DNA from: Terriglobales bacterium
GTDB lineage: Bacteria; Acidobacteriota; Terriglobia; Terriglobales; Acidobacteriaceae
DNA: 64,000 nt
NCBI GenBank assembly: GCA_035487355.1
Contig: DATHMF010000025.1
Span: 1-64,000 of the forward strand
Reading direction: 5' to 3'
The translations under genes were made by a program, and so were the position numbers. The first letter of the stretch is position 1; each line of letters begins with the position of its first letter. This document shows, piece by piece, positions 13,098 to 61,559 of this stretch. The notes under the pieces were generated by a model. The model was not told where the DNA came from. It saw only the letters and a program-made list of their open reading frames with translations, and did no database searches.

Positions 13098-13117
13098 AGC
13101 TCTACCTTATCGTCTCG

Positions 13118-13768
13118 TCAAACCTTTCTTTTGTCATCTAAAAAAACCGTCACTCGGGGAAGCCCGAGTGACGGCCCCTGGGAAAGGGGGATGGAAATCA
13201 TCAAATCACGCTCTTCGCTCATCACAAACAAAAGTTCCAGGTTTTCTAATTGTTCAACTTCGAACTGAAATTCCCCTAAATGACTGGTTGTGGTCTGCTG
13301 CTTATAAGCCAAGAGGCGAACAGGAATGTCGCCAAGTGCGCTATTGGCTCGGCCGGAATCGAGCACCTGTCCAACGATGGCCAGGCGATCGGCCTGGGGC
13401 GCTATGCGCATGTCAATACTATAGCGTCCCTTTTGGAACACCAGTTGCCGGGCGCGGCTTAAGCTACTGCGGATGCCTGGGGCCACCGGCTGCGCGAAGC
13501 TATCGAATATCAACTCCGCATAGGAAATTTCCCGCACCTCTTTGGGATGGCTCATGGCAAACCGCGCCTTGGCTGTATGAACATAAGCGTCGAGCGGCTG
13601 GTAAGACCTTTCCCTGTCTGCACACTCGATTACGCGCTTCCAGGTCTCAAGGGGCTTACGGCAATCTGAGCACCCGTCATCCAGGTGCTTTTGCATTGCC
13701 AGGCTTTGCTCCTCCGACACCACTCCACGAACGAAATCAACCCATTCTTGCATAGCAAAGTGCTTCAT
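13118..13768 (-). CDS. Zinc-finger (ZAS-like) protein, candidate anti-sigma factor, with beta-rich C-terminus
   Basis: 216 aa from ATG 13768, chosen because GAGGAG precedes it; an upstream in-frame extension to 13870 lacks a ribosome site. H28-x4-C33-x2-C36 (KHLDDGCSDC) is a variant of the zinc-binding anti-sigma motif. There is no membrane segment. The C-terminal half (about 100-215) looks like a carboxypeptidase-regulatory-type beta sandwich (IVGQVLDSG ... LGEFQFEVE). Within the operon it follows sigma factor and TPR-CHAT genes, so it is the natural candidate for holding the sigma factor and being cut by the CHAT protease (inference). Its last codons encode a perfect terminator hairpin. Confidence 0.72.
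   Translation of the reverse strand: MKHFAMQEWVDFVRGVVSEEQSLAMQKHLDDGCSDCRKPLETWKRVIECADRERSYQPLDAYVHTAKARFAMSHPKEVREISYAELIFDSFAQPVAPGIRSSLSRARQLVFQKGRYSIDMRIAPQADRLAIVGQVLDSGRANSALGDIPVRLLAYKQQTTTSHLGEFQFEVEQLENLELLFVMSEERDLMISIPLSQGPSLGLPRVTVFLDDKRKV
13140..13174 (-). terminator. Intrinsic terminator inside the 3' end of the zinc-finger gene
   Basis: On the minus strand, CCGTCACTCGGG pairs perfectly over 12 bp with CCCGAGTGACGG (loop CTTC), followed directly by seven T residues. It lies in the coding sequence, about 20 bases before the stop, ahead of the protease gene. Translating ribosomes could mask it. Confidence 0.8.
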
Positions 13769-13910
13769 CTTTCTCCTCGGCCAAAGGGAATATGCTGATA
13801 ACTCCCAGACGGGTGGCGCCCGGAACACCTCTAGTTCCGGTATATGAATAAAGGGCAAGCAGGCAGCCAAAAAATATAGGGGAGTGAATATTTTTTTTGG
13901 GTACCCGAAG

Positions 13911-45027: not shown

Positions 45028-45086
45028 TTGAAAAGATTGGCCGGGGAGAGAGGATTTGAATCTCCGACCCCCTGGTCCCGAACCAG
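45028..45086 (-). repeat. tRNA-Pro 3'-end copy: candidate att site, left end of island
   Basis: Fifty-nine bases match 61473-61531, the 3' half of tRNA-Pro(CGG) plus 10 flanking bases, at 55 positions and in the same orientation. The copy runs from the anticodon stem through T arm, acceptor and CCA. The 5' half of the tRNA is absent and replaced by unrelated sequence. Such partial copies are the usual mark of integration into a tRNA 3' end. Confidence 0.75.
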
Positions 45087-46859: not shown

Positions 46860-47454
46860 AGAGATAGCCTCCTGTCGAACTTTTAAGTTTGGGTGCGATA
46901 ACCAAGTCCCACATTTGCCCAACCCACAGCAAAAACTTGCTTCTTTTGCCAGAACGATGGGCCCAAGCGAGCTTATGGTACTGACTGGAAACGACAAACC
47001 AGATAATCCCCCTTTTTATATCCTCGGTTTCAATTTGGGACTTGTTCGTCGAAAATTCAAACTGCACGGGTCTGGAGTTACCTCAACAGCATAGTGCTTC
47101 CCTTGCAGCACTGCCTCAGCGTTACCTCTCTTAAAAGCTTCGACTTTGCGGTTGCGCAGTCTAGCTAATACCCCATCTCGGCCCAATAAAAACATGACGT
47201 GGAGACGGAAAAAACTGTTTAGGAATTGCCCGGCACAATACTCCCATTCTCCAATCTAAAGCAAACAAATTCCAGATTATTTCTCCTCCTTCGTTTCAAA
47301 ATGAAACGGCAGTTCAATCTGGTACTGCTGCGATTTTCATACGTGAAGTGTCGACATCGTTGCCAAGAAGCCTGGAGAGGCAACGCGACCACGCACCACA
47401 GCTACTTTCTTTAGCTATTAAGTGTCACAACGAAAATTGTCGCAGGAGCGGGGG
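46860..47454. other. Long intergenic region with a 17-bp palindrome
   Basis: No gene found in about 600 bases. CGTTTCAAAATGAAACG at 47292-47308 is a perfect palindrome (7-bp arms, 3-bp centre) and could be an operator. The promoter for the CxxCH protein should lie near its 46.9 kb end. Confidence 0.45.
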
Positions 47455-48243
47455 TCATCCCGAGCGCCGCAATTCGATCAAGTAGTGATCCGCAAACGAC
47501 GGCAATGGAGGTACTGCTTCCAAGCGGCGCTCGCAACGGTCGAGGAAGTGAATCAGCTTGCGATGCCGCAACGCCCAGGCCTCGGCATAGCTGGGCGGAA
47601 CGAACACGCCGATGGCACTAACGCGGAGAATCGTGAAATGAGGCATTGACCATCGACGCATGGTCCGCAACGAAGGATACGACACATGGATTCCATGCCA
47701 TTCCACGGAGGATCGGAAACGGCGAAACGCGCGAGCAGGATCGCCGTGAAGCAGATACCAAATCCATTCCCAAGGACACCATGGACCCATCACACACAGC
47801 AGGACGTGAGTGCCCGGATGCAGGCACCGCGCAAGTGCGCCCAGGGCCACATCGACATGTTCCACGCAGTTCAGTCCGCCAAAATTCGAAAACGCGCCAT
47901 CGAACTCCGACGTCGGCAGATTGTCGAGGTTATCCCAGCCCATGCATTCATAGCGGATCATGTCTTCAAGCCCATGTTGCTTGGCCTTGGCTGCGGCGAT
48001 TTCGATCATGGCGCGAGAGACGTCGGTTGCAAACACTGAGACACCTTGACGCGCGAGATATACGGCGTCCTCGCCGGTGCCGCAGTTCAATTCAAGGATG
48101 CGCTGGCCAGGAGCGAAATGGAATGGAAATCGATTCCACACTGCCCGCCGCATTGTGGAGCCAATCAGAGAATTCGTGAATTCCCGGTCGTAACTAGCCG
48201 CCAGTTCTCCAAATGGATCGGCGGCGCCTTCGGACTGGCTCAT
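47455..48243 (-). CDS. SAM-dependent methyltransferase
   Basis: 262 aa from ATG 48243, whose ATGA overlaps the upstream stop; a longer frame to 48336 runs inside the previous gene. Class I core: ILELNCGTGEDAVYLARQGVSVFATDVS as motif I with the acidic end, then GAFSNFGGLNCVEHVD and LARCLHPGTHVLLCVMGP. The C-terminal part (about 170-262) has a PS-YPS and FLDRCERRL ending. The Cys-rich start of motif IV and a Trp-rich PWCPWEWIWYLL loop could shape a hydrophobic substrate site. Last gene of the coupled chain with the second methyltransferase and two radical SAM proteins. Confidence 0.85.
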   Translation of the reverse strand: MSQSEGAADPFGELAASYDREFTNSLIGSTMRRAVWNRFPFHFAPGQRILELNCGTGEDAVYLARQGVSVFATDVSRAMIEIAAAKAKQHGLEDMIRYECMGWDNLDNLPTSEFDGAFSNFGGLNCVEHVDVALGALARCLHPGTHVLLCVMGPWCPWEWIWYLLHGDPARAFRRFRSSVEWHGIHVSYPSLRTMRRWSMPHFTILRVSAIGVFVPPSYAEAWALRHRKLIHFLDRCERRLEAVPPLPSFADHYLIELRRSG

Positions 48244-49154
48244 TGACGCCCTATCAAGATTACGAAGCGGCTTGGTTCGCGCTTCCCCTTCCATCGTGCT
48301 ACCCAAGGACGCATGGCCCACTTCCAGCCGTACCACGGCTCGACCTTTTCCCAGTTAAGGCAAAGTTCGTGTTCAAGTTGTGTTAGACGATCTCGAGTCA
48401 TGTATTGCAGGCTCGGGATGGACTCGGATCGCGTGCCATACCGCTTCTCAAAAAACGCGTGACGTTCAGCGATCATCAGTTTACCGCTTTCTTCCTTTTG
48501 GTATACCGGTGTTTCGAGAACGACAATACTTCCACCGGGTCGCAACACTCGAAGAGCTTCACGCAAGGTTGCGCCGTAGTCGGTGCTGTAGTGCAGGCTA
48601 GCGTTGTAGATCACGGCGTCCGCAACACCGGAAGCGAGCGGCAGATGCTCAAATTCCGCCTGGAAACGAGGCCACGCGGGAGTGTAATGCCGCGCGGCTC
48701 CCAATCCATCCTGGTCGTCGACACTCACGTCGATGGCGCAAGGAGTGCAGCCGTGTTCCGCCAGACGCCGACTCAACCAAGCCACTCCGGCCCCGAGATC
48801 CAGGATCGAAGGGTTGCGGCCGAGCTTGGGAAGAACACGCCGGACAAAGCAGTCGAATGTATTCTTATGGATTGCCCATTGCCACGCAATCGGATGCCCA
48901 GGGTCGCATGATGGCAGCTTCAAATAGAAATCTGGTGATTTCGAGCCACGCCCTTCCGCCAACCGGATAGCCGTATAGTCACGCAGAAAAGGCTCCAGCA
49001 CGGCCAATCGATCGGGTGGCAGGAACCGCCATATGCCGTCAATACAGGAATAGTGGTTCCCGCAACGTTCGCACGCCGCGGCTTGCATCTGTGCTGAAAG
49101 GGTGCCGAGATCCGATTGGCATTTGGGACAGGCCAGTCGCCAGTCGAAGGTCAA
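48240..49154 (-). CDS. SAM-dependent methyltransferase with N-terminal zinc ribbon
   Basis: 304 aa. A Trm112-like zinc ribbon uses Cys9, Cys12, Cys28 and Cys31 (LACPKCQ, CERCGNHYSCIDGIW). The class I core has ILDLGAGVAWLSRRLAEHGCTPCAIDVSVDD and FEHLPLASGVADAVIYNASLHY, then LREALRVLRPGGSIVVLE. This layout, ribbon plus methyltransferase 11 domain, is common in natural-product and glycan clusters. Its start and stop both overlap neighbours by ATGA, so it is made together with the radical SAM protein upstream and the methyltransferase downstream. Confidence 0.88.
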   Translation of the reverse strand: MTFDWRLACPKCQSDLGTLSAQMQAAACERCGNHYSCIDGIWRFLPPDRLAVLEPFLRDYTAIRLAEGRGSKSPDFYLKLPSCDPGHPIAWQWAIHKNTFDCFVRRVLPKLGRNPSILDLGAGVAWLSRRLAEHGCTPCAIDVSVDDQDGLGAARHYTPAWPRFQAEFEHLPLASGVADAVIYNASLHYSTDYGATLREALRVLRPGGSIVVLETPVYQKEESGKLMIAERHAFFEKRYGTRSESIPSLQYMTRDRLTQLEHELCLNWEKVEPWYGWKWAMRPWVARWKGKREPSRFVILIGRQ

Positions 49155-50542
49155 GCCTCGACCTCATGGGCTACAGCCAACATAGCCTCCTTCGCCGCCC
49201 GGGCTTCGGCGTTGAGCGTGACGGCCGCGGCTTGGTCCGCCGAAAACGCGCGGTGTGCGGCGACTTCCTTGCGGAGCCAGCGATCGGCGTGCTGGTAATA
49301 AGTGCGCGAATGCCGGTTGCGAATGGCGTAGTCACGATCGGTGCTATCGTCCCAACTCTTGTTGAGAACCACACGGTCGGCGATCCTGCGAAAGTAACCA
49401 GTATTCATGATCGGGTAGGAAACCGTAGTCAGAAATTGTTCGGGATCGCACTTCTTCACCAAATCAATGGTTGCTTGCATATCCTCGATTGTTTCGTCCT
49501 CGTAGCCCCACATAAGGAACATACCCACTTCGATTCCGAATCGCTTGGCCATCTTGCTGGCCCATTCCACTTGCTCCACTTTGACTCCGCGCTCCATTGC
49601 GTCGAGAATTCGCTGGCTGCCGCTCTCCGAACCGATCCAGATACGGTAGCATCCCATCTCAACCAGCGTGCGGATTACGTTCTCGTTCATCATCCGGTCG
49701 GCGCGCGAGATTGTTTCAAACGGCAGAAAAAGCTTCCGGCGTTTCAGTTCGGCGGCATAATTGTGCAGCCAGCCATGATGGATAGTAAACACGTCGTCGG
49801 CGTACCACACCTGATCGGGATGGTAAGACGTCTGGATGTGTTCCAATTCATTGGCGCAATCTACATAGCTCCGGCGGCGGTGCGAAAAACCGAAGACCGC
49901 ATGCGAGCACCAATTGCACTTGTATGGACAACCACGCGCGGTGATCAGATTCACGCTGCCGCGACCGTGATGCGCCCGCCAAACGTCCACGTAGCGCGCC
50001 TGATCGATTTGTCCACGGTCGGGCCAGGGCAGGCTATCCAGATTTTCGATCTGCGGCCGGGCAGGATTCATGATCACTGCGCCGCTCTCGTTCTGAAACG
50101 CCGTCCCACGGACACCATACAGCCGGTGCGGACCCTTCTTGTCGATCTCGGGCAGGAGCTCGGCCAGCGTCTCTTCACCTTCGCCGATCACAACCACGTG
50201 AGCTCCACGCTGAATGTACTCTTGTGGATAGTTGGCGGCTTCTGGCCCGCCCAAGACCACAATCCAGCCATGGGCGTGAGCCCGCGCCGTTATCTCCAAG
50301 ATCGCGCCGCGTGTGGTGAGATTTGTGTAGATGCCGAGTACGCTCTTCGGTCCGTTCTGCAATCTCTCAAACAAAGCGTCGCGTGAAGAAAAGGTGCTAT
50401 CAAAGACTTCCACCGCGAATCCCGCCCGGCGGAGATACGCGGAGATGTACAGGAGTCCCAGCGTAGGATACGGCTTCATGATCCTTACTTCCTTTTCGTC
50501 CTCGAAGAGGAAGTAACCGTGAGTGAGAAGGATGTTAGTCAT
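49151..50542 (-). CDS. Radical SAM protein with N-terminal B12-binding-type domain (I)
   Basis: 463 aa from ATG 50542, which follows the previous stop by 14 bases. The N-terminal about 150 residues have the cobalamin-binding Rossmann layout (PYPTLGLLYISAYLRRAGFAVEVFD, VVLGGPEAANYPQEY, VVIGEGEETL) without a clear D-x-H-x-x-G, as in many members. The radical SAM cluster is Cys205, Cys209, Cys212 (TARGCPYKCNWC), followed by WYADDVFTIHHGWL and IGSESGSQRILDAMERGV. The C-terminus is helical and Ala-rich. Members methylate unactivated carbon or rearrange rings in peptides, lipids and antibiotics. Substrate unknown; adjacent methyltransferases support a modification pathway. Confidence 0.88.
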   Translation of the reverse strand: MTNILLTHGYFLFEDEKEVRIMKPYPTLGLLYISAYLRRAGFAVEVFDSTFSSRDALFERLQNGPKSVLGIYTNLTTRGAILEITARAHAHGWIVVLGGPEAANYPQEYIQRGAHVVVIGEGEETLAELLPEIDKKGPHRLYGVRGTAFQNESGAVIMNPARPQIENLDSLPWPDRGQIDQARYVDVWRAHHGRGSVNLITARGCPYKCNWCSHAVFGFSHRRRSYVDCANELEHIQTSYHPDQVWYADDVFTIHHGWLHNYAAELKRRKLFLPFETISRADRMMNENVIRTLVEMGCYRIWIGSESGSQRILDAMERGVKVEQVEWASKMAKRFGIEVGMFLMWGYEDETIEDMQATIDLVKKCDPEQFLTTVSYPIMNTGYFRRIADRVVLNKSWDDSTDRDYAIRNRHSRTYYQHADRWLRKEVAAHRAFSADQAAAVTLNAEARAAKEAMLAVAHEVEA

Positions 50543-50556
50543 GGTGGTTTCCGGCG

Positions 50557-52068
50557 TCAGTTCCACGATCCGCTGAGATTGGGCGGCAAGACCGGCAGGT
50601 AATGTTTATGAACGGACGTGGGATGTTCGGCCTGATAGTTTGCTTCTACCTTTTGAATCTCCTTCCACTCGGCATTTACGCTATCGAGTTCGGCGAGCGC
50701 CTCGGTCGTGTTCTTCGGGGCCGATTGCAGTTTCAGGCGGACGTCCAATTCGCGATGGACCACTTTGTACAGACGGCGGTAGAACTCCGTCCGATACGAT
50801 CCCTGGAACATCATGGCGAGATCGTCGCTATTGTCCCAATGGTCTTTGGTGCCCAACTCGTTTTTCACCATATCGTAGAAACGCGTTCCCGGTAAAGGGT
50901 TACTGACGCTAATCCCGATGCTTTCGGGCAAAGTCGTTCGCACCATTTCGGCGGTCGCAAGGATGTCTTCGAAAGTTTCCCCTGGATAACCGAATTGCAG
51001 GAAGAAACCTGTGGCGATGCCCGCGTCCTTAAGCCGCTGCCTCACGACGGGGATTTGCTCAACGCAAATTCCTTTGTCCATGGCGTCGAGAATCTTCTGG
51101 CTGCCGCTCTCCGCGCCGATCCAGACTTCCCGGCAACCCGCATGCGCCAGCGCCTCTACAGCGTCAGGCGTCATCAGGTCGACACGTGATTGAATCATGA
51201 AAGGAATCGAAGCATCTCGAGCCCGCACCTCCTCGGCGAATTGCACCGACCATTTCGGCTGAAGTCCGAAGATATCGTCGACGAACCAGATATGGTCGGG
51301 TCGGATGGTTTGTTTCAACAATGCCATCTCCTCGGCAACGTTTGCCGGAGAGCGCATGGCATAGCGCTGTCCCCAGATCGGTTTCGCGCACCAATTGCAG
51401 TGAAACGGACATCCTCGCGTACTCACCATGTTGACGCTAAAGAACCCGTGTGCCTGCATCCACGCGGCGCGATACGGCTCGGCTTCCAGCAAATCCCAGG
51501 CAGGCATGGGAAATACGTCGGGATGCCGCTCGGGAATGCGCGCCTCATTGCGCCGGACTCCTCGCGGTTGGCTGGAATCCGCGCGCGCCAGGCCGGGAAT
51601 CTCGTCCAATTTCGCATTGCACAAGGATCCCGTGGAACGCAGCGTCCCTAACAATTCACCCAGGCTGTGCTCAGCCTCCCCTAAGATTGCGTAATGGACG
51701 CCGTGCAAAAGATACGCCTCGGGATGGTCGGTTACGTCCGATCCACAAGCGATCACGGTTGCGCCGCGTCCGGCGGCGAAGCTTGCCATTGCCTGCGCCG
51801 CTTGCCGGCTGTGGTTAAGACACATTTTGTTCAGAAAATGAAACTCATCCTCAAAGAGCACCACCATTCGGCAATCCGAAGCGCGGAGCAGCGCCTCAAA
51901 TTCATGGACGCCGTCGGAGAGCAGGGCGTCGAAGAGACCAACGGTGTATCCAAGTGAACGCAGGTAACTGGCGGCGTAGAGGGTCCCCAGCGGCGGATAG
52001 GGACGCATCTTTTCTACCTGCTTGGCATCGTTCTTTAAAAAGAAGGAGTGTGCGAGGAGTACATCCAT
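50557..52068 (-). CDS. Radical SAM protein with N-terminal B12-binding-type domain (II)
   Basis: 503 aa from ATG 52068, with GGAG six bases ahead. Same architecture as the neighbour: RPYPPLGTLYAASYLRSLGYTVGLFD, VIACGSDVTDHPEAY, AILGEAEHSLGELL, then the cluster Cys220, Cys224, Cys227 (TRGCPFHCNWC), DHIWFVDDIFGLQPKW and IGAESGSQKILDAMDKG. The two proteins are clearly related over their length and probably arose by duplication, acting in successive or parallel steps. The C-terminal 100 residues are charged and helical. No D-x-H-x-x-G cobalamin motif is evident. Confidence 0.88.
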   Translation of the reverse strand: MDVLLAHSFFLKNDAKQVEKMRPYPPLGTLYAASYLRSLGYTVGLFDALLSDGVHEFEALLRASDCRMVVLFEDEFHFLNKMCLNHSRQAAQAMASFAAGRGATVIACGSDVTDHPEAYLLHGVHYAILGEAEHSLGELLGTLRSTGSLCNAKLDEIPGLARADSSQPRGVRRNEARIPERHPDVFPMPAWDLLEAEPYRAAWMQAHGFFSVNMVSTRGCPFHCNWCAKPIWGQRYAMRSPANVAEEMALLKQTIRPDHIWFVDDIFGLQPKWSVQFAEEVRARDASIPFMIQSRVDLMTPDAVEALAHAGCREVWIGAESGSQKILDAMDKGICVEQIPVVRQRLKDAGIATGFFLQFGYPGETFEDILATAEMVRTTLPESIGISVSNPLPGTRFYDMVKNELGTKDHWDNSDDLAMMFQGSYRTEFYRRLYKVVHRELDVRLKLQSAPKNTTEALAELDSVNAEWKEIQKVEANYQAEHPTSVHKHYLPVLPPNLSGSWN

Positions 52069-52099
52069 ATGGTTCTCCACTGGTAATCTTCGCCAGACC

Positions 52100-54400
52100 T
52101 TAGTGGTGCTGGAGATAACTTACCGCAGGAATGATTCTCACTAACTGCATCATGCCACGGTCCTCATGGCCCAGCAAGTGGCAGTGGAGCACGAAATCGC
52201 CAGTGAAATCGACGTAACGGCTACGGATCCGCACATGGCCAGGTTGGGTCGCCTTACCGTCGTTGCCGATGACAAGGTTCCCAGAACTGTCGGTTTTAGC
52301 AGGGGGAATCAGAATAACGTCATGCCAGATGCCGCCCTCTTCTGCCTTGTAATTGTTTGACGCATCGTTCGGATCGTACACCTCCACCAACTGGAAGGGA
52401 TTCACGTGGATGTGGTATGGGTGCCGGATGGAAGTAGTGTTGATGATCAACCACTCTTCCGGCTCGTCCAGGACCAATGTTTGGCCGTAGTTCTTTTCGC
52501 TAAATTGAACGCCGTCCAAGGTGAAGTAAGGGGCCCGGTTTACATTGATCACGAATTCGTTGTTGCCATCGACTTTGACGGTGATCGGCAACGCCGCTTT
52601 CTTGGTAATGTCTTTCGGATCGGCGTGGGTGGATCCCGAAGCGGCCGGTGCGCTAACCAACCGGTAGGGCTCCCATCCGAAGTCCAGGTTCCGTGATTTC
52701 CGGCAGGGGCCGATGTCGTGAAGAAAATCGGGGAAGACGGGATACTTTCCGGCATTCCTGCCTTCGTTCGGAAAATCCATGTCAACGGGATCGCCGCACA
52801 CGATGACATTGACGTAGTTGGCGAATGGAAATTGGCCTGGATCGATAAATGAGAACGTTCCTGAGGCAGGGGCCTTGACGAGAATGTCGGCTCTTCCGCC
52901 GGCCGCTACCCACAGGCGGGTCGCGTTCTTCGTTGTGTGGTCCTGCAGCGTGAGCGGCTGCTTCTGGTAGTTAGCCAACTTGAACTGAACACCGTCCTGA
53001 GCGATCTGCCGGAACATCGGGACGACGGCACCCGAGGAGTCCTTGAAGGACGCACGAATGCTGTTTTCGACCATTGCGTTGACGATTCGCCACAACTGAA
53101 TCTCGCCCGGGCGCATCTGGATGGTCACCGCCGGGTTTTTGAGATCGGCGCCCGCCAAGCCGCCGTTCACCATGACCGGAATCGTATTGTTGTTGGCAGC
53201 CCGCTCCAGATCGTTCATGTCGGTGAAGCGTTGAACCAGGAGGACCTTCTGCGTCTGGTCTAAATCCGGATAGATCGCTCGGAGATCCCTGTCATAGTCG
53301 CCCTCGATGATAAAAGCGCCGGCGAGTCCGTTGTACAAATGGATGGCCGTCGAGCCGTGCTTGTGGGCGTGATACCAATGCGTGCCTGGCGCCTGACCCA
53401 TCTCGTGTCCGGCTGCTTCGGTGATCTGGAAACAATTAGGATAGCCGCCGACAAAGAACTCCGGCCATTTCCCTTCGGCGCGCAATTGAGCGTTCTTGGT
53501 TGCCAGCCGGTTATTGAACGGTAGCGCTGGATTCCCCGGCGTTCCGCGCTTGCCCTGCCAGATTGCAGTCTCGTCGTAGTTTTTGATCCGGTTCGCTTGA
53601 TCGGTGCGCCACGCCTCAGGCGCCTTGTCCCACTCGATGTGATGGGCCGACTCGGCGTACGCGAATACCTGTTTGAAGAGCGGCGCGGCTACCTGTTCCG
53701 TGAAGGTTGTGTCGGGGCGCACTTGTACGAGTACGTTGTCGGCGAAATCGTCCGGCGACACGTGCGTCCCATGGAAATGGAGGTTAGCGGTGCTCGAAGC
53801 GTGGAAGCAGTTCGGGAATACATCGCCGCGAGTCTCGGGATACCACTTGTTATCCGGTGCAGGGGCGCCTGTGTTGGGATCCTTGAGCGCCGCATTTGTG
53901 TACATGTCGCAGCCCGTGCCCTTGCCTTGCTCCGCGTTATCGATTGACAAACCACTGTTGGAAAACGCGCCGGGGGTCACGTGGTTTAAGAAGGTAATTT
54001 CCACTTTTTCACCGACCTTGGCGCGCAGCGTGGGACCGGGCAAGCAAGCTTGTACTTGGTCTGTCGGCGGCCAAACCGTCCCATCGGTTTGATCGCGGCC
54101 TTCGAAATAACGCATAACTGGAAGCTGGCTGCCAGTATAGCCAGGAAGCCGTTTCTGGGTATTCTTGATCGTCAGGACCGCTTTCAGTTTTCCGCCCTTG
54201 CTGATGATTTCTCTGATCTTCGGAAATGTGTCTGCCGGACAACTGCCCTGCATCGCCATAGGGTCCGCAAACGACGACAGCAGAGGCATTAACGCTAAGC
54301 CCGATGTTGCGGCCAGCATCTGGTTGACGAATTCGCGCCGCGTAACGGCTTGGACATTCCTTTTCTTGCGATCTTTGCCCAGATTCTTTTTCTTCGTCAT
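52100..54400 (-). CDS. Tat-exported multicopper oxidase
   Basis: 766 aa from ATG 54400 (AAGGGAT upstream). A basic N-terminus with TRREFVNQM is a twin-arginine signal, followed by a hydrophobic stretch ending LSSFADP. All four copper motifs are present: HFHGTH (from residue 208), HWYHAHKHGS, HPYHIHVNPF, and HCHLLGHEDRGMMQ with the type 1 Cys-His-Met set near the C-terminus. At over 700 residues it is longer than CotA or CueO, with insertions between motifs. Substrate may be metal (Mn, Fe) or phenolic. A signal-less cupredoxin gene lies 24 bp upstream on the same strand. Confidence 0.92.
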   Translation of the reverse strand: MTKKKNLGKDRKKRNVQAVTRREFVNQMLAATSGLALMPLLSSFADPMAMQGSCPADTFPKIREIISKGGKLKAVLTIKNTQKRLPGYTGSQLPVMRYFEGRDQTDGTVWPPTDQVQACLPGPTLRAKVGEKVEITFLNHVTPGAFSNSGLSIDNAEQGKGTGCDMYTNAALKDPNTGAPAPDNKWYPETRGDVFPNCFHASSTANLHFHGTHVSPDDFADNVLVQVRPDTTFTEQVAAPLFKQVFAYAESAHHIEWDKAPEAWRTDQANRIKNYDETAIWQGKRGTPGNPALPFNNRLATKNAQLRAEGKWPEFFVGGYPNCFQITEAAGHEMGQAPGTHWYHAHKHGSTAIHLYNGLAGAFIIEGDYDRDLRAIYPDLDQTQKVLLVQRFTDMNDLERAANNNTIPVMVNGGLAGADLKNPAVTIQMRPGEIQLWRIVNAMVENSIRASFKDSSGAVVPMFRQIAQDGVQFKLANYQKQPLTLQDHTTKNATRLWVAAGGRADILVKAPASGTFSFIDPGQFPFANYVNVIVCGDPVDMDFPNEGRNAGKYPVFPDFLHDIGPCRKSRNLDFGWEPYRLVSAPAASGSTHADPKDITKKAALPITVKVDGNNEFVINVNRAPYFTLDGVQFSEKNYGQTLVLDEPEEWLIINTTSIRHPYHIHVNPFQLVEVYDPNDASNNYKAEEGGIWHDVILIPPAKTDSSGNLVIGNDGKATQPGHVRIRSRYVDFTGDFVLHCHLLGHEDRGMMQLVRIIPAVSYLQHH

Positions 54401-54424
54401 GCCGATCCCTTTCGCCTGCATTTG

Positions 54425-54742
54425 TCATCTAGCGTTGATAATAATCCGGCCCGTCTCGCTTGTGTGCCCCGCCACGGCACACACGTATTCAATTACCTGG
54501 TCTTGGCCTTTGATCGCATCCCCAAACGAAATGCCCGGAGACGTAAATGGATCTTGGCCTAGGACCGCAGGTCCAAGAACATTCGCCATCCACGCAGTGG
54601 TGGCCAGGCCTTTTTGAGTTATCTGGTGCGAAGCCTGCGTATCGTTGTTAACGAACACGACCACATCGGTGCGCCCGATTCGGATTGGATTTGGATTGAA
54701 AACGACGTTACCAGCTTGCCGCTCGATTGAGACCGTTGCCAT
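54425..54742 (-). CDS. Cupredoxin-like protein without the axial methionine
   Basis: 105 aa from ATG 54742 (GGGGAAATT upstream). A compact beta protein with cupredoxin features: VFVNNDTQASHQ with His39, and YVCAVAGHTSETGRI with Cys88 and His93 spaced like azurin. The residue four places after that histidine, normally methionine, is threonine, so a type 1 site would lack its axial ligand or use another residue. There is no signal peptide. Being encoded directly before the Tat-dependent multicopper oxidase, it may be co-exported bound to it, or stay cytoplasmic (inference). Confidence 0.7.
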   Translation of the reverse strand: MATVSIERQAGNVVFNPNPIRIGRTDVVVFVNNDTQASHQITQKGLATTAWMANVLGPAVLGQDPFTSPGISFGDAIKGQDQVIEYVCAVAGHTSETGRIIINAR

Positions 54743-54810
54743 AATTTCCCCGCTTCCGTTTTGAAAGATCTGCCTGCGAGCCAACAATCGGCATAGATTA
54801 CCATAGTGAC

Positions 54811-54839
54811 GTAATAAAAATTCACGAAATTCCAGACAA
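54811..54839 (-). promoter_or_regulatory. Candidate promoter for cupredoxin / multicopper oxidase genes
   Basis: On the minus strand TTGTCT (54839-54834) and TATTAC (54816-54811) are spaced 17 bp, pointing to the cupredoxin start about 70 bp downstream. Confidence 0.45.
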
Positions 54840-54841
54840 CG

Positions 54842-54877
54842 GTAGTTCCAATTTGAAATGTAGTTCCAATTTGAAAT
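54842..54877. repeat. Exact tandem duplication of an 18-bp unit
   Basis: GTAGTTCCAATTTGAAAT occurs twice back to back (54842-54859, 54860-54877). It lies just upstream of the candidate cupredoxin promoter, a position suited to an activator or repressor. GGTAGT and ACTACC flank the pair as an inverted repeat. Confidence 0.7.
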
Positions 54878-54893
54878 TAGGACACTACCCGGA

Positions 54894-55841
54894 TCATTGC
54901 GCGTGGTCTAAGTATCTGTCAAGCAAGTCAATCACTTGATCCAGATTGCAGCCAAGGCAAAGCCGGTACGCGCCCTCTCCAAGAACATTTTCTATACGTT
55001 CGCGATATGCCGGCGCCAGAGCTTCGCGGCCTGACTCTCCAGCCGGCCACAGCGCGAACGACTCCTCTGCCGCGAGTGTTTCTAACCGACTGTCGCCCTG
55101 GAGATTCTGCTCAAGGAAGAGAACAATTCCCGCCGGAGCATGGGTGACGCCGCTGCCGAGGCGAATTTGGTCCACAGAAATCTCCAGCTTAGCTTCGCCA
55201 TCGTCTTCCTCGGCGACAAAGGCCGCAGAGTCGAAGGCTAGTTTCGGAAATAACGAGGCAGCTGAACGCCGCAAGCGCAACCACCACGGGATTCCCCACC
55301 AGTCGCCGTTAGGACCGATCCACACGGTGCTATCGGCTAGGATGCGCCAGCCGCGTTCGACCGCCGCGCATGCTAAAACGCTTTTGCCGGAGCCGCGCAC
55401 CCCCCGAACCAGGACCGTCCGGCCGTTCCTCTCCAGCCCGGCTGCATGGATACCGACAAATCCGCGAGCTGTCAATAGCACAGCCAAGGCAAATTGCAAA
55501 TAATGGTGCCGCAGCACGGCTTCATCGCTGAGTAATTCTTGCGGAAAACATCCCTGGGCTGCACCCGTTGTCAGATTGGCTCGGATAACTTGCTCATTTC
55601 CAGCCCAGGCACACGCCCATTCGTCTTCAAACTGAAAGACTGGGTGGGCGGTAATGTCCCCCAATTGTGAAACTAGAAGATTGAAATGAAGGTCAGCGGC
55701 GCGTTGGGGATCTCCGGGACCAAAGCCGCCAAACAGATCTGCGCAGATCCTGAGAAGCGTCTCATTTTCGGTTTCGACGCGCAGGTTCAATCCCATTGGA
55801 CGAAACCAGCTAACTGTAACGCGCTTCACGGGGCGGTCCAA
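54894..55841 (-). CDS. HPr-kinase-like P-loop protein
   Basis: 315 aa. The P-loop GVRGSGKS (147-154) with the following ACAAVERGWRILADSTVWIG resembles the HprK C-terminal kinase fold. Before it, the HYLQFALAVLLTARGFVGIHAAGLERNGRTVLVRG segment matches the HprK-related kinases found in peptide-modification (RiPP) clusters. The canonical HPr system is not expected here. In RiPP clusters such proteins are thought to phosphorylate or otherwise handle the precursor. Its start overlaps the end of the gene upstream by 16 bases. It is the last gene of the upper half of the island cluster. Confidence 0.78.
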   Translation of the reverse strand: MDRPVKRVTVSWFRPMGLNLRVETENETLLRICADLFGGFGPGDPQRAADLHFNLLVSQLGDITAHPVFQFEDEWACAWAGNEQVIRANLTTGAAQGCFPQELLSDEAVLRHHYLQFALAVLLTARGFVGIHAAGLERNGRTVLVRGVRGSGKSVLACAAVERGWRILADSTVWIGPNGDWWGIPWWLRLRRSAASLFPKLAFDSAAFVAEEDDGEAKLEISVDQIRLGSGVTHAPAGIVLFLEQNLQGDSRLETLAAEESFALWPAGESGREALAPAYRERIENVLGEGAYRLCLGCNLDQVIDLLDRYLDHAQ

Positions 55842-56608
55842 CCGTTCCAGTGCGGTCCAATCCAGCCCCGTTCCGTGATCTCCCGCATACTTTCAGGATC
55901 GAGTCTGTTCAACTCGCGCCAATTCACTTTGCCTTGGCCGTAGACGTTGAGGTAGGGAACCGGTGCCTGGTCTTGGGGAGCGGAACCGAGGATCAACTTG
56001 CCGTCGTTCAGATGCTCGTGCATTCCGAGCCGTTCGAAATCCCATGGACTCCGGCCCGGCTTGAGCATCGTGTCCAGATATTCGCTGCGCCAGATCGCCG
56101 CCTGCAGGGAGGATCGGTACAGGGCATCTTGCGCGCTTACAACGATGTTGAATTGATCGCACTCCGCATAAGGCGAATGCGCAAAATATGCGCGGTCCAG
56201 CGTAAGATCGACCTTCATCACGTTGTCGGTGTGGATCTGCTGCTCGAGGACCCGGACCTGCTGGCGGTTTACCGGGCGATAGATGAAGTAGTCGATTTGA
56301 AGCAGAGCGAAGTACGAATCGGAGATGCGCGCCAGCCAGCGTTTCAGACTATCGCTCCAGCGTGGCGTGGGATACAACTCGCCGAAGTGCCTTCCGCGAC
56401 GTTGTTCCGACCACTCGGCGACTTCGTTGCCGAACTCGCTGGCTGCGCCCAGCGATTCAAAGGAGAAATTTGCCGGCATTTCTAAGCCAGGAGCAGTGTA
56501 GCCAAGGATGGTCACGGGCTGGTCAGGAGACCAAAACCTGTTGAAGAGATGCGCGAAGGCTGGAATCAACGGGTTGTACCAGTCGGATGTAGTGACGTAG
56601 ACGTTCAT
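55826..56608 (-). CDS. Glycosyltransferase-like protein of unknown specificity
   Basis: 260 aa. The N-terminus MNVYVTTSDWYNPLIPAFAHLFNRFWSPDQPVTILGY has the opening of small GT-A-like proteins, and the FALLQIDYFIYRPVNRQQV stretch fits the position of a metal-binding strand, though a clean D-x-D is missing. A later WRSEYLDTMLKPGRSPWDFE is typical of bacterial sugar-transferase-like open frames. No signal. Overlaps the HPr-kinase-like gene downstream and follows the radical SAM gene after 13 bp, so it is part of the same transcript. Confidence in the family is moderate. Confidence 0.55.
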   Translation of the reverse strand: MNVYVTTSDWYNPLIPAFAHLFNRFWSPDQPVTILGYTAPGLEMPANFSFESLGAASEFGNEVAEWSEQRRGRHFGELYPTPRWSDSLKRWLARISDSYFALLQIDYFIYRPVNRQQVRVLEQQIHTDNVMKVDLTLDRAYFAHSPYAECDQFNIVVSAQDALYRSSLQAAIWRSEYLDTMLKPGRSPWDFERLGMHEHLNDGKLILGSAPQDQAPVPYLNVYGQGKVNWRELNRLDPESMREITERGWIGPHWNGWTAP

Positions 56609-56621
56609 CGACGCCGGCCCA

Positions 56622-58160
56622 TCACAACGAATCCCGCTGGGGCTGCCGAAGGGGAATGAATCTGCGCGCCAACTCTAGTTCCCAGGCGTTGGCATAGCGT
56701 CCGCTCTGGTAGCGCCAACCTGCCAAGGTCTTCAATAGGGTCTTGCCCCACGCCGGAGTCGCATAGTCTTGCACAGTGGGAAACCGGCAGGCGAGCACGC
56801 GAGCGAAGTCCCGCACGCGGCGTCGCATCTTCGGCGAGAGCCAGGGCGCGTCCTGATGGCAGACGTAGTTTAGCCACTGCGGCTGCGTCCATTCCTCCGG
56901 AGTCGTAGGCAGTTCCGGACCACCCGGACCATAGGAATCCAGCAAAGGACGCGCGTCTTTCTTCGAACCCGAAGCACGCTGCGGAGTCGGGCTGTAAAAA
57001 TACAAGATGATTTCGCACTCCGGATTGATTCCCTTCAGCTTCTTGATGAATTGGAGCGTGTTCTCGATCTCATCTTCAGGATCCTCAGGACCGCCTAAGA
57101 CAAAGGAGAACTCGGGAATCACGCCATATTCACGGCAGAGGCGCGCGACCTCGATCGTGTGTTCAGCGCGCGATCCCTTTTTCATGCGACGAAGCACCGC
57201 GTTGCTGGCAGCTTCGGCGCCGATATAGGCCATTCTCAGGTGCGAGGTGCGCAGACGATCCCATGTGCGCGGTGAGAAGTTGGCCAGCGTATCTGCGCGC
57301 GCATAACACCACCAAGGCAGATTGAAGCGTGAAAGCACCTCCAGAGGCGCTTGACTGCTCTCCTCGTTGTCGAAAAAGTTGTGATCGTAGAATTGCATCG
57401 CGTTTGCGCTGTAGTTTCGGGAAAGAGTGGTAAGTGCCAGTTCCAGCCTTGCACTCGATCCCATACGCGTATAGCCATCGAACATCGAAACCACACCGCA
57501 AAAAGTGCAATGATAACGGCATCCAAGTGCCGCTTGATGCACGGCGGTTCGCGATCCCATGAAACTTGGACGCAGATAGCGCCCAACGTCGCCAACGCGC
57601 TCATAGGGCAGGGGCGGATGCTCGTCGGGCGGAACAAATCCGCGATTGGGATTGTGGACCACCTGTCCATCTTGTTTCCAAGTGACTCCCGCGATGCCAC
57701 GCAGCGCATCAGAATGATTGCTGCTCGAATTGCTGGCGGGATCCGGCGAACCGGCATCGGGAAGCTGTTCCAACAACTGGACAATCGTGCGCTCTCCTTC
57801 GCCGCGAACAACATAATCGACGTACGGCGCGTTGATAGCTGAGTCCGGATACAGAGTAGGGAAGTAACCGCCCCACGCGATTGGAACCGATGGATGCGCC
57901 GCCCGGATTGCTACAGAAATCTCGATCGCCGGGGCGACCTGGGGTCCGGGCATTACCGTGACGCCGACGAGGGCGCAATCCTCGCGCTGCGCAGCCGTCA
58001 CGGCACGATTCACGGCATTGGCATCGAGGTTTCCGTCGATGATCTCGTAATCGTAGCGGCCTTCGAGTATCGCGCCCACCGCCAGCACCGAAAGCGGCAG
58101 CCGCACGCTCTTCGGTCGGCACATTCGCGGATTGATCAACACCACGCTTCGCCGTGTCAT
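56622..58160 (-). CDS. Radical SAM protein with N-terminal B12-binding-type domain (III)
   Basis: 512 aa. A cobalamin-binding-type domain (INPRMCRPKSVRLPLSVLAVGAIL, VAWGGYFPTLYPD-like PIAWGGYFPTLYPD, VVRGEGERTIVQLL) is followed by a Ser/Asn-rich linker at about 138-150. The cluster cysteines are Cys214, Cys218 and Cys221 (ALGCRYHCTFC). Then come FYDHNFFDNEES and YIGAEAASNAVLRRMKKG. Sequence differs more from the two proteins at 49-52 kb than they do from each other. The start overlaps the stop of a methyltransferase gene (ATGA). Substrate unknown. Confidence 0.87.
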   Translation of the reverse strand: MTRRSVVLINPRMCRPKSVRLPLSVLAVGAILEGRYDYEIIDGNLDANAVNRAVTAAQREDCALVGVTVMPGPQVAPAIEISVAIRAAHPSVPIAWGGYFPTLYPDSAINAPYVDYVVRGEGERTIVQLLEQLPDAGSPDPASNSSSNHSDALRGIAGVTWKQDGQVVHNPNRGFVPPDEHPPLPYERVGDVGRYLRPSFMGSRTAVHQAALGCRYHCTFCGVVSMFDGYTRMGSSARLELALTTLSRNYSANAMQFYDHNFFDNEESSQAPLEVLSRFNLPWWCYARADTLANFSPRTWDRLRTSHLRMAYIGAEAASNAVLRRMKKGSRAEHTIEVARLCREYGVIPEFSFVLGGPEDPEDEIENTLQFIKKLKGINPECEIILYFYSPTPQRASGSKKDARPLLDSYGPGGPELPTTPEEWTQPQWLNYVCHQDAPWLSPKMRRRVRDFARVLACRFPTVQDYATPAWGKTLLKTLAGWRYQSGRYANAWELELARRFIPLRQPQRDSL

Positions 58161-58879
58161 GCTGGGCCTCCATGCGGCGGCTTCAATCGCGCCGCATAAA
58201 CGGTCATGATTTCGTTCCCGAAATTGCGCTGTCCGGCCACCACGAGCGAAAACCTGTTCGCCCGAAGTGCCGCCACGAGCGAGCCGCAGTCGCCGTCGGT
58301 CGAAAGCAATATCAAAGCTTGTCCTTGATCGGTCAGGATATCAGCAAGACTGGCAGCGAAGCGCTCCATGATGTCGCGGCTCCGCCAACTCATATCGAAA
58401 AGGCTCGTCGGTTCTCCCCGAAAGAAGGGAGGATTGAACATTACCAAATCGAACCGCTCGCCGAGCACTGTGTCAAACAGATCCCCTTGGTGCACGTCCA
58501 CCTGCGAATCCACAGAATTAAGGAGGCAATTGATTTTGGCGCAACGCACAGCCTCGGGATTGATATCCACGGCAATGACGCGATAGCCTTGCTTGGCGGC
58601 AAAAATTGCGCAGACCCCCGAGCCGGTACCCATGTCCAAGGCCAGGCCTTTCGCGTGCGGGAGACTAGCGATGATTTCCGCGAAGTATTCGCCGCTGCGG
58701 AAAACCACGGGATTCAGCACATCCGGCCACACGAGCAACGGCAAGCCTCGCACCGATTCCAGCACATGCTTGCGCACGCGCGGCAGCAGGAATGGTCTCT
58801 TGACGTAGAGCCAAAGCAATGCAGCGGCTCGCAGCCACGGATTTGTTCGCGGTTCCGCGATGGCCAATCTCGAAATCAC
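58157..58879 (-). CDS. SAM-dependent methyltransferase (HemK/NPPF type)
   Basis: 240 aa from GTG 58879 with AAGGA upstream; the frame is open further but overlaps the previous gene. Core: ALDMGTGSGVCAIFAAKQGYRVIAVDINPEAVRCAKIN and FDLVMFNPPFFRGEP. The NPPF motif is typical of N-methyltransferases acting on planar amide or amine nitrogens, such as HemK/PrmC. An N-terminal helical extension (LYVKRPFLLPRVRKHVLES) may bind the substrate. Coupled by ATGA to the radical SAM gene downstream. Confidence 0.85.
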   Translation of the reverse strand: MISRLAIAEPRTNPWLRAAALLWLYVKRPFLLPRVRKHVLESVRGLPLLVWPDVLNPVVFRSGEYFAEIIASLPHAKGLALDMGTGSGVCAIFAAKQGYRVIAVDINPEAVRCAKINCLLNSVDSQVDVHQGDLFDTVLGERFDLVMFNPPFFRGEPTSLFDMSWRSRDIMERFAASLADILTDQGQALILLSTDGDCGSLVAALRANRFSLVVAGQRNFGNEIMTVYAARLKPPHGGPA

Positions 58880-58904
58880 AACAATTCCTTGCTTCGCGTG
58901 ACCC

Positions 58905-59789
58905 TTAGTTTCGCACAAAGTGCTCCACTTTTCTCGCCGATCGCCAAAGCAGCCACAGGAAACAAAGCCGGTATCCCTGCCTCTTGGGCGACGCCCAAAT
59001 TGATTGCCCAAAGAGTGTGGAAGCACGAAAGGAGAAATCGTAAAGCCGGACATGCGGAAATAGATGGCTGTGCAATCGTCGTAACGCGAGATTACTGGTC
59101 CATCCGCGCCAGAAATAGCGGCCCCTTCCCGCCATTTCCGCCAGCTTGCGCTCCCCCACCGTGGCTGCGCCGCGGCGTGTGAGCGTCACACCAAAGAAAC
59201 GGACAATTTCTCCGGTGCGATCCATGTGATGGAAGTTGATCCTATAGCCGGCTTCAACAACCGCCAGCGACAACACATCGCCAGTGTCGTACCACTTCCA
59301 ATCGAAGACGGGAAGGCTTGTGTCTAGACTCTCAGCGCGGGGAAAGAAGCCATCCGGCAATTTCTTCATGACCTCGCGGTAGATCTCCGGCTTCAACACC
59401 ACCGAGTACGTCCCGTGACTCTTGCGGCGCGATCGCGAGACGCAGGAGACCGCCGCTACATTGGGATCATCGAGCTCCTTCTGCACGCGCGGCCAAACTC
59501 CGCGCGAGACCCAAAAGACGTCGCTGTCGATGATTGCCAGATATCGAGTCTGGCAACGCTGAACCGCTTCGTTGTAGGCGTCATGAAACTCGCGGCAGGT
59601 TGAGGTGCGATGCAAGATCGTTGCGCCCGGAAATTCCGCCGGATCGAGCTGCGGACCATCAGAGTCGTGAAAGATCTCGAAGCGCGCCAACCCGTCGGGG
59701 AAAGCGCGACTGACGCATTGAAACCAGATCCGCACCACGTCGGCAAAGACTGTAGACGTGAAGACCGTAAGCAAAGGCTCAGCGGGCAT
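58905..59789 (-). CDS. Glycosyltransferase-like protein (GT-A fold)
   Basis: 294 aa from ATG 59789; the frame extends to 59816 from a TTG inside the previous gene. LLTVFTSTVFADVVRIWFQCV opens the Rossmann-like domain and YLAIIDSDVFW supplies the D-x-D-like metal site. RRKSHGTYSVVLKPEIY and YDTGDVLSLAVVEAGY follow. The C-terminus is rich in aromatic and basic residues and may contact the membrane. It overlaps the previous glycosyltransferase gene by 11 bases. Donor and acceptor unknown. Confidence 0.75.
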   Translation of the reverse strand: MPAEPLLTVFTSTVFADVVRIWFQCVSRAFPDGLARFEIFHDSDGPQLDPAEFPGATILHRTSTCREFHDAYNEAVQRCQTRYLAIIDSDVFWVSRGVWPRVQKELDDPNVAAVSCVSRSRRKSHGTYSVVLKPEIYREVMKKLPDGFFPRAESLDTSLPVFDWKWYDTGDVLSLAVVEAGYRINFHHMDRTGEIVRFFGVTLTRRGAATVGERKLAEMAGRGRYFWRGWTSNLALRRLHSHLFPHVRLYDFSFRASTLFGQSIWASPKRQGYRLCFLWLLWRSARKVEHFVRN

Positions 59790-60741
59790 TGACTGCTCTC
59801 CAGCAATCGGGAACAAGGCCCGGCAGTGGCTCGCGGATGCCTAGATAGCGCGCCAAACGCTCCGCGCAGCGATCAGATCTCGCGAAATACTCCAACAAGG
59901 CCGCGCGCAACTCCGCGCGCTCGATTCGCGCCAGGATACGCCGAAGCGCCTCTGCCGTCAGGCTGCCACCAAGCTCGCGCCCATCGGCGCCCGCCGCGAA
60001 CGGGCCGTCAAAAACAGCCCGATACAACCAGCCGAGCAGGACGTTGTCGTACGCTCCCATAGCGAAATACCGTTTGTCGGCAATCAAGGCTTCAAATGCT
60101 TCTTCGCCGATCGCCGCAGCGAACGTTTCTCGAGATACTCGAATCACTGTCGTGCCGTGAAAATCGGCAATGCGTTGGGGGGCTTCGTCGCTAAGGTCCA
60201 CGATGTGCTTGCCGACCTTTTCCAGCATCAGCGCGGCGCACTCACCGGGGCCGCGATTGATAGAATGGGGCCATTTCTGCAAGTCCTCATACGATGCCAT
60301 CATGGCCCGCTCCGGCAATCCGCGATAGTCCTTGGCGTGGCACAACAGCGCATAGACGCCCGGCAGCTTGCCTCGCCGCAAGTAGGACAATGCCGCGATA
60401 CTGGGATCGTCGAAATGGCGGATGCAGCTCGCCGCCCACGGTGAGTCCAGGATAAATACGTCGGCATCCAGGAAAAACACAAAATCGAAATCGCTCTGCA
60501 GGGCAGCGCCGTAGAATTCGACGAAATCGCGCGCGCCCGGACCTGGGTCTTGAAACGATGTTTCCGGGAAATCACATTGAGAGAAGCGGTCTCGATTCGC
60601 GTCGCGGAAAATGACCACTGTCACCTTCCAACCGAGGCTACGGAAGGCTGGCGCCAGATCCTTGTGGACCATGCGATGCCACAGTCGCGCCAGGTCCGCG
60701 TAGCGATGCGGACCCGTGATCATCACTCGTGGAGCGTTCAT
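59779..60741 (-). CDS. Glycosyltransferase-like protein (GT-A fold)
   Basis: 320 aa from ATG 60741, the start that overlaps the small repeat-protein stop as ATGA. There is no ribosome site of its own, so it depends on coupling. NAPRVMITGPHRYADLARLWHRM opens the domain; FVFFLDADVFILDSPW is a clear D-x-D motif; SYLRRGKLPGVYALL and the helical C-terminus follow. Related in layout to the next gene. The upstream extension to 60930 is an overlap frame of the repeat protein and is not counted. Confidence 0.76.
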   Translation of the reverse strand: MNAPRVMITGPHRYADLARLWHRMVHKDLAPAFRSLGWKVTVVIFRDANRDRFSQCDFPETSFQDPGPGARDFVEFYGAALQSDFDFVFFLDADVFILDSPWAASCIRHFDDPSIAALSYLRRGKLPGVYALLCHAKDYRGLPERAMMASYEDLQKWPHSINRGPGECAALMLEKVGKHIVDLSDEAPQRIADFHGTTVIRVSRETFAAAIGEEAFEALIADKRYFAMGAYDNVLLGWLYRAVFDGPFAAGADGRELGGSLTAEALRRILARIERAELRAALLEYFARSDRCAERLARYLGIREPLPGLVPDCWRAVNAR

Positions 60742-61004
60742 GCGAAAGGAGGATGATCGGTGCGGGGATGATAGCGTCCCTTCCGATCGAAGCCGCACTC
60801 CCAAACTCCACCGAGCCACTCGCCTTCCCAGAAGACGCCGCCCCAGAAACTTCCATCGCGGAACTGGCCGCCGCGAAAAATGCCGCCCATCATGATCCCC
60901 GATTCGAAGACGCCGCCTTGCCACTCGCATTCCATAAGCACCGCGCCGCGGTTGACGGTCTCCGGACCGAACGATTCTTTCTGGAAAAACTCACCTGGAC
61001 TCAA
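60738..61004 (-). CDS. Small Gly/aromatic repeat protein
   Basis: 88 aa from TTG 61004 (ATG at codon 24 is an alternative). From about residue 25 to 72 a five-residue period places Phe or Trp and Gly regularly: ECEWQGGVFESG, GGIFRGGQFRDGSFWGG and VFWEGEWLGGVWECG. This suggests a beta-solenoid or a repetitive peptide. There is no signal peptide; two Cys flank the array (C26, C69). The stop overlaps the glycosyltransferase start (ATGA), which supports a real gene. Next to glycosyltransferases and radical SAM enzymes it is a candidate substrate or scaffold (inference). Confidence 0.6.
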   Translation of the reverse strand: MSPGEFFQKESFGPETVNRGAVLMECEWQGGVFESGIMMGGIFRGGQFRDGSFWGGVFWEGEWLGGVWECGFDRKGRYHPRTDHPPFA

Positions 61005-61482
61005 GACTCGCAGAGGTCGCTCCTTCTGTTCAGGCTGAGCCGAAAGGCTTCAAGCTATCATCGCCGCGCGCGGCCTGTCAATCGAACAGATTCAAAGGTT
61101 GTTCCTCGCCGAAACTCAGATCCACTGTGAACTCAACGGTTTAAGGCCGATGGCAGAATGGTCTTGCCGAGCGATGGGTCGGTAGTTGTCGCCGCGACCT
61201 GCTGGATCATGTGATTCCGGTCAACGAACGACCATCGTTACGATCTGGCTGCCTAAGATTTCATAAACAACAGGCCGATTTTTTTACTAGCGATGAAAAC
61301 TCGCCGGTGGCGCAGCCTCGCCGCTTCTCACGTGTCACGGCCAAAATCGGACCTTGATCGTCTCAACCGCGTAATCGTTTGCCGCCGGAAGGTGTGCCTG
61401 TCTATTTCAGTTCCAAAATAACGGCGTTTTTTTAGATTTTGGCAAGGGACAACAGTAGCAGCCCGTATCTTATTGAAAGAAT
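61005..61482. other. Island right-end gap with decayed transposase
   Basis: About 480 bases between the repeat-protein gene and tRNA-Pro. The only recognisable content is the degenerate integrase-type transposase fragment at 61148-61357; the remainder shows no gene or structured element. Confidence 0.5.
61148..61357 (+). pseudogene. Degenerate fragment of an integrase-core (rve-type) transposase
   Basis: Seventy codons read RWQNGLAERWVGSCRRD, LLDHVIPVNE and then a diverged tail (FHKQQADFF, ENSPVAQPRR). The first part matches the conserved N-x-x-A-E-R-(W/F)-(V/I)-x-(S/T)-x-(R/K)-x-E/D-x-L-D-H segment around the catalytic Glu of IS3/IS481-type transposases. No start, D-D part or terminal repeats remain. 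Confidence 0.6.

Positions 61483-61559
<77 letters not shown>

Follow-up and report, generated by a model that had tools for sequence, protein, structure and literature searches.

The stretch analysed here, the window, comprises positions 1 to 64,000 (64,000 nucleotides, forward strand) of contig DATHMF010000025.1 from a Terriglobales bacterium of the Acidobacteriota (assembly GCA_035487355.1). Its segment 45.0-61.5 kb is a gene island of ~16 kb, in which a short gene for a repeat-containing mini-protein, pep, lies together with genes for glycosyltransferases, methyltransferases and three B12-binding radical S-adenosylmethionine (SAM) enzymes. The genes, with pep at the head of its block, follow each other in the order of transcription:

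60738-61004, minus strand: pep, pentapeptide-repeat mini-protein, 88 residues from a TTG; its stop overlaps the GTa ATG (ATGA)
59779-60741, minus strand: GTa, glycosyltransferase of the GT-A fold by structure model; no Pfam match
58905-59789, minus strand: GTb, family-2 glycosyltransferase (PF00535); its start overlaps the end of GTa
58157-59053, minus strand: MTc, class I SAM methyltransferase, MTS/PrmA-like (PF05175, 7e-16)
56622-58160, minus strand: rS1, B12-binding radical SAM protein (PF02310, PF04055); CxxxCxxC present
55826-56608, minus strand: GTx, 260 residues; its identity as a glycosyltransferase is a guess only
54894-55841, minus strand: HprK-like P-loop protein, weak Hpr_kinase_C, HprK_rel_A and ScmC matches (TIGR04352 1.8e-11, under the cut-off)
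54425-54787, minus strand: cupredoxin-like protein (PF00127 0.0019, weak and under the cut-off)
52100-54421, minus strand: multicopper oxidase (PF07731, 9e-16)
50557-52080, minus strand: rS2, B12-binding radical SAM protein (PF04055, 1.1e-17), core of a recurring cassette
49151-50566, minus strand: rS3, B12-binding radical SAM protein and partner of rS2 (PF04055, PF02310)
48240-49154, minus strand: MT2, SAM methyltransferase with a Zn-ribbon-like N-terminus (PF08241)
47455-48336, minus strand: MT1, SAM methyltransferase (PF13649), conserved cassette member

These genes fall into two blocks, in which neighbours overlap or abut. A preliminary description, made from the letters alone, had reported this coupling and correctly placed the three radical SAM proteins, the three methyltransferases, the HprK-like protein and the copper pair. 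Its region ended at 61004, the first listed TTG of pep, a gene that it did not mention. The glycosyltransferases that it listed stand in part, GTb by its Pfam match and GTa by its model fold, while the label of GTx is a guess.

The mini-protein and the associated glycosyltransferases

Read from the TTG at 61004, which is preceded by an AAGGAG motif, pep is MSPGEFFQKESFGPETVNRGAVLMECEWQGGVFESGIMMGGIFRGGQFRDGSFWGGVFWEGEWLGGVWECGFDRKGRYHPRTDHPPFA; a CTG at 61013, 6 nt after GGAG, may be the true start. The central run comprises approximately ten pentapeptides of the GGxF/W type, with a small residue at i-2 and F, W, M or L at i. This register holds at 19/22, and none of 5000 shuffled versions of each peptide reached it. 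The homologues from four other genomes are 62-69% identical to pep and gapless across the repeat region, and dN/dS values of ~0.1-0.3 indicate purifying selection. Cys C26 is invariant; the last C-terminal residues vary between homologues. As a pattern of residues, the assignment of pep as pentapeptide-repeat-like is well supported. As a fold it is plausible from the model: AlphaFold2 predicts an all-β structure with a mean pLDDT of 94.2 for the best model, the five models spanning 45-94. Foldseek returned no significant match for this model, and the repeat part (60738-60933 tested) matched no Pfam or NCBIfam model. The top PDB sequence match is MfpA, weak at E 0.33, and the VIA-align comparison with MfpA gives Z 6.6 and an rmsd of 4.1 for 86 residues, tied with unrelated β-helices.

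The best Foldseek match of GTa (1.2e-7) is the mannosyltransferase PcManGT. The glycocin S-glycosyltransferases SunS and ThuS are also matched, and polysaccharide and polyprenyl-phosphate/lipid glycosyltransferases are about equally close. GTx has no Pfam or NCBIfam match and no homologue in 100 relatives.

In the phylum sample of 396 Acidobacteriota genomes, pep and GTa occur in the same four (pep E ≤ 1.3e-43; the next best match is 3e-6). Scanning the GTDB 220 contigs for pep added one locus, L060 in genome G482, which gives five genomes, all Acidobacteriota and all with GTa. GTb has strong matches in G000, G106, G266 and G482, none in the pep-less cassette genomes G270, G337, G413 and G437, and is present wherever the set is intact. 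The pep gene precedes GTa in the window, in L039/L061 and in L060. Weak pep matches elsewhere (G139, G011, G163, G470 and others) were rejected as unrelated low-complexity or repeat-rich frames, and no match was found in plasmids or viral contigs.

Association with a B12 radical SAM cassette

The rS3 query (E ≤ 1e-60) matched 41 of the 396 genomes, to rS3 or to its paralogue rS2. Tandem rS2-rS3 genes within 4 kb are present in 31 genomes by our own count (~8%), usually accompanied by MT1, MT2 and rS1. We refer to rS2-rS3-MT1-MT2-rS1 as the cassette, or module 1, and to pep-GTa-GTb as module 2. The recurrence of this gene set shows that it is more than a chance assembly. MT2 homologues adjoin rS3 or MT1 homologues in most cassettes, and frequent companions are HprK-like genes, extra B12 radical SAM genes, a third methyltransferase and an amidohydrolase. 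NTP_transf_5 is also found in some cassette loci, together with HprK in L041.

Module 2 adjoins the cassette in several arrangements. In L060, pep-GTa-GTb lies downstream of HprK-rS2-MT1-MT2-rS1-amidohydrolase. This locus holds the genes of both blocks together, so the two blocks form one gene set; the copper genes do lie between them, as first described, but do not separate two systems. In L054, pep is located inside the cassette, between rS3 and MT1 homologues. In G106 all of the genes are present on separate contigs (GTa with MTc; GTb; rS2-rS3-pep-MT1-MT2; rS1). Homologues of MTc, whose true start is probably near 58905, adjoin GTa, GTb and rS1 in L037 and GTa in L038, and rS1 homologues are 64-68% identical in the pep genomes G106 and G266 and 46% in G482. 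In the rS2 tree, pep accompanies two separate cassette lineages. This distribution demands a minimum of two changes, placed on well-supported branches, and hence either two joinings of pep with the cassette or their joint retention through several losses. We take either history as a sign that the two are useful to each other. Among the small open reading frames (≤150 residues) of 22 cassette loci, pep alone is common to different genera, barring overlapping-frame shadows and simple repeats.

The fifth pep genome carries a partly deleted version. L061 (G151) is syntenic with L060, with both flanks ~77-80% identical, and lacks HprK-rS2-MT1-MT2, the amidohydrolase, GTb and all of rS1 except its last 31 residues; MT3, pep and GTa are kept. 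The DxD motif of this GTa is altered (DPG for DAD), reading LLDPGVF where the others have LLDADVF, FLDADVF or LLDADLF. Relaxed selection on the gene is not supported (dN/dS 0.32, compared with 0.29 for a gene in the flank).

The proteins rS1-rS3 contain B12-binding and radical SAM domains, the B12 domain of rS2 lying slightly under the cut-off (E 4.7e-6), and their CxxxCxxC motifs are CPYKCNWC, CPFHCNWC and CRYHCTFC. Of the 31 radical SAM matches in the 5.4-Mb genome, three fall within 9 kb here. None of the NCBIfam models for B12 radical SAM enzymes of ribosomally synthesized and post-translationally modified peptides (RiPPs; ApyD, rSAM_ocin_1, KedN5) is matched over its cut-off, the best being rS3 with ApyD at 117.8 against 750 bits. 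The best NCBIfam match of rS2 is the lipid model rSAM_ladder_B12, far under its cut-off. A hopanoid pathway is rejected, because HpnJ scores 88-106 bits (cut-off 577.6) and HpnR at most 74 (cut-off 650); the gene-for-gene agreement with a surface-glycan or hopanoid pathway that would have spoken against the preliminary description was not found. A defence system was likewise discarded, PADLOC giving marginal generic radical SAM matches only. An in-frame TAG in several rS3 homologues does not reflect recoding in the only example checked (G249, L105), which has an open frame of 469 residues with the TAG just upstream of the start.

The pep-less loci L104, L105, L106 and L108 of the window's family have extended cassettes, with one or two additional B12 radical SAM genes. 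L106, and likely L105, has a fused methyltransferase-amidohydrolase, and a SPASM radical SAM gene lies near the L106 cassette.

The HprK-like and copper proteins are less constant. Aligned with cassette-associated homologues, the HprK-like protein keeps an intact Walker A motif (GxxGxGKS), and its DD motif is DS. G106 and G266 hold pep, the glycosyltransferases and the cassette but give no match to it, and the matches that it does have are mostly only 24-31% identical, so it was abandoned as a comparative anchor. The HprK-like gene, taken earlier as a clue to a RiPP, is therefore present here but not a constant member. The cupredoxin and the multicopper oxidase were seen in none of the other cassettes compared, and the multicopper oxidase is probably a local insertion outside the core of the pathway.

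Borders of the island

The island ends at a tRNA gene on the right and at a partial copy of this gene on the left:

61483-61559, minus strand: tRNA-Pro (CGG), found by ARAGORN; presumed integration target
61473-61531: right 59-bp direct repeat, the 3' half of tRNA-Pro plus 10 bp (blastn)
45028-45086: left 59-bp direct repeat, a partial tRNA-Pro copy, att-like (blastn, E ~1e-21)
45342-46997, minus strand: hypothetical protein of 551 residues without a Pfam match, within the borders

The repeats are 93.2% identical over 59 bp (blastn), have the same orientation and lie 16.4 kb apart. The repeat spans tRNA-Pro(CGG) from the anticodon arm through the 3' end, and 45028-45086 is its sole other copy in the window; both borders thus carry the tRNA 3' end as a direct repeat, the mark of a tRNA island. 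An island-free tRNA-Pro-purM neighbourhood is seen in G004 (L128). Moreover, the rS2 of the window clusters with other families (f18, f82 and f67), and the rS2 homologues of its own family form a separate, well-supported clade. From the repeats, the empty site and the foreign placement of rS2, the island was very probably acquired laterally in tRNA-Pro(CGG). No integrase is found among the annotated genes between the 59-bp repeats.

Between the tRNA and pep, at ~61100-61260 on the plus strand, a frame resembles the end of an insertion sequence transposase (AERWVGSCRRDLLDHVI...; Pfam rve_3, E 0.085, weak). The hypothetical protein at 45342-46997 has a heme-c-like motif, CFSCH, close to its end. 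Outside the left border, 42631-44919 on the plus strand encodes a protein of 762 residues with a weak transglutaminase-core match that was not found in 60 relatives, and the DNA on this side of the island may be variable as well. Farther away on the minus strand (11712-16808), a subtilase gene (11712-13097) is close to a gene for a TPR-CHAT protein (13911-16808); the two are peptidase-type genes and may form a conflict or signalling pair of the caspase-like/subtilase kind.

A candidate pathway and its alternatives

The anatomy of the island is firm, and from it we infer the chemistry. In the reading that we favour, to which we give a probability of roughly 45%, GTa and GTb attach sugars to a folded pentapeptide-repeat peptide, which carries or receives methylations by the B12 radical SAM enzymes. 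The island would unite modules 1 and 2, with pep as the ribosomal substrate or as the carrier on which the product is assembled. GTa and GTb, soluble glycosyltransferases of the GT-A fold, would put sugars on pep or build a glycan on it, as their co-occurrence with pep suggests. The enzymes rS1-rS3 would methylate unactivated carbons of pep or of its attached group, and MT1, MT2 and MTc would add further methyl groups. Module 1 could also provide a methylated group that module 2 then links to pep. The preliminary description had proposed a heavily methylated, glycosylated product, peptide or lipid. This frame is kept and now leans towards a peptide, since a conserved pep gene stands first in the block, with ATGA coupling to GTa, and co-occurs with GTa and GTb; the lipid or glycan branch is retained below. 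Somewhat more tentatively, the system may represent a ribosomal natural product of a new class. Its substrate or carrier for glycosylation and multiple C-methylations would be a folded pep instead of a disordered leader-core peptide, and a mobile pep-GTa-GTb module would join the cassettes in Acidobacteriota.

B12 radical SAM enzymes act on peptides elsewhere, and pep or its attached group may be the methylated part here. PoyC, from the proteusin (polytheonamide) system, methylates peptides (PMC5682303), and in the pearlins TmoD acts on the ribosomal carrier peptide TmoA (PMC9303977). Like the proteusins (PoyB/PoyC) and other RiPPs with B12 radical SAM enzymes, the island combines a ribosomal peptide with several such enzymes and likely C-methylation. 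Unlike them, it has no recognised leader and core, dehydratase or exporter, pep is a predicted folded repeat, and rS1-rS3 score far under the RiPP cut-offs. The pearlins resemble the proposed pathway in pairing a B12 radical SAM enzyme with a ribosomal carrier peptide, but Pfam and NCBIfam detect no PEARL (LanB-like ligase) in the island, and pep has a variable C-terminus. As in the glycocins (SunS, ThuS), a GT-A glycosyltransferase gene lies beside a small peptide gene, and both enzymes are among the fold matches of GTa; pep differs in having no bacteriocin-type leader and no glycocin-like disulfide pattern, despite the invariant C26. HprK homologues phosphorylate lasso precursors, and a nucleotidyltransferase accompanies the kinase in pseudomycoidin (PMC8498205). 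The HprK homologue here, and HprK with NTP_transf_5 in L041, recall these HprK-tailored lasso peptides (paeninodin, pseudomycoidin). However, Pfam detects no transglutaminase-like protease or asparagine-synthetase-like cyclase at 47.4-61.0 kb, the C-terminus of pep is not Ser, and the HprK-like gene is optional, with an altered DD motif. Finally, pep has the pentad register, and by prediction perhaps a β-helix-like fold, in common with pentapeptide-repeat proteins such as MfpA and Rfr. It differs in its many glycines and in having Phe/Trp where A(D/N)Lxx is usual. The earlier statement that no known class fits therefore holds for the RiPP and hopanoid B12 radical SAM models, PEARL and the lasso enzymes. 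In the literature searched we found no published description of a pep/glycosyltransferase module combined with B12 radical SAM enzymes and no example of a folded repeat protein as precursor or carrier for radical C-methylation; the set is real, conserved and, in that literature, apparently undescribed.

Several observations weigh against a modified pep. The pep model is predicted to be well folded (best pLDDT 94, lowest of five 45) and the protein is conserved along its whole length, unlike the usual leader-core precursor. Pfam and NCBIfam scans find no protease, transporter or exporter and no recognised PqqD-like RiPP recognition element in the island, divergent elements of this kind being easily missed. 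G106 and G266 share one genus, which reduces the pep family to approximately four lineages. Most cassettes lack pep and GTa and share no other small peptide, so in the pep-less genomes the B12 radical SAM enzymes probably act on another substrate. In addition, WecG, GT87, O-antigen ligase-like, Wzz and GT4 genes occur around several of the cassettes without pep.

These last neighbourhoods fit a methylated surface polysaccharide or glycolipid, which we regard as almost as likely as a modified pep. Here the cassette would methylate a sugar or lipid, GTa, GTb and GTx would assemble the product, and pep would be an accessory (scaffold, chaperone or regulator). The lipid model as the best NCBIfam match of rS2 and the polysaccharide and polyprenyl-phosphate enzymes among the GTa matches point in the same direction, whereas the annotated island genes include no polymerase, flippase, export protein or initiating membrane transferase. 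The ATGA coupling of pep to GTa, and the co-occurrence of pep, GTa and GTb even where they are unlinked, also speak against this alternative. Acidobacteriota make branched glycerol dialkyl glycerol tetraethers (brGDGTs) and membrane-spanning lipids. For methylation of such lipids, which we keep within this alternative, the island holds no pointer apart from the B12 enzymes.

MfpA and Qnr are pentapeptide-repeat proteins that protect DNA gyrase, and pep could similarly be an immunity protein, protecting the producing cell against a small molecule made by the cassette. The pentad register and the weak resemblance to MfpA agree with this, but pep tracks GTa and GTb rather than the cassette, pep-less cassettes are common, and pep has about half the residues of the solved MfpA; we consider such a role unlikely. 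Least probable of all is a chance neighbourhood of unrelated modules gathered by tRNA insertion, for which the att-like repeats, the copper pair and the 45342-46997 gene (no counterpart noticed in other cassettes) could be cited, since the modules meet again, in differing gene order, in L060 and L054 and are present, though unlinked, in G106.

Soils are rich in Acidobacteriota, whose B12 radical SAM gene sets have, to our knowledge, mostly not been assigned. The partly deleted locus of G151 offers a natural control, as do the many cassettes without pep, and the extended pep-less cassettes are a common gene set worth separate study. In summary, a common B12 radical SAM cassette can now be told apart from a rare peptide-glycosyltransferase module, and the latter provides an 88-residue candidate substrate.

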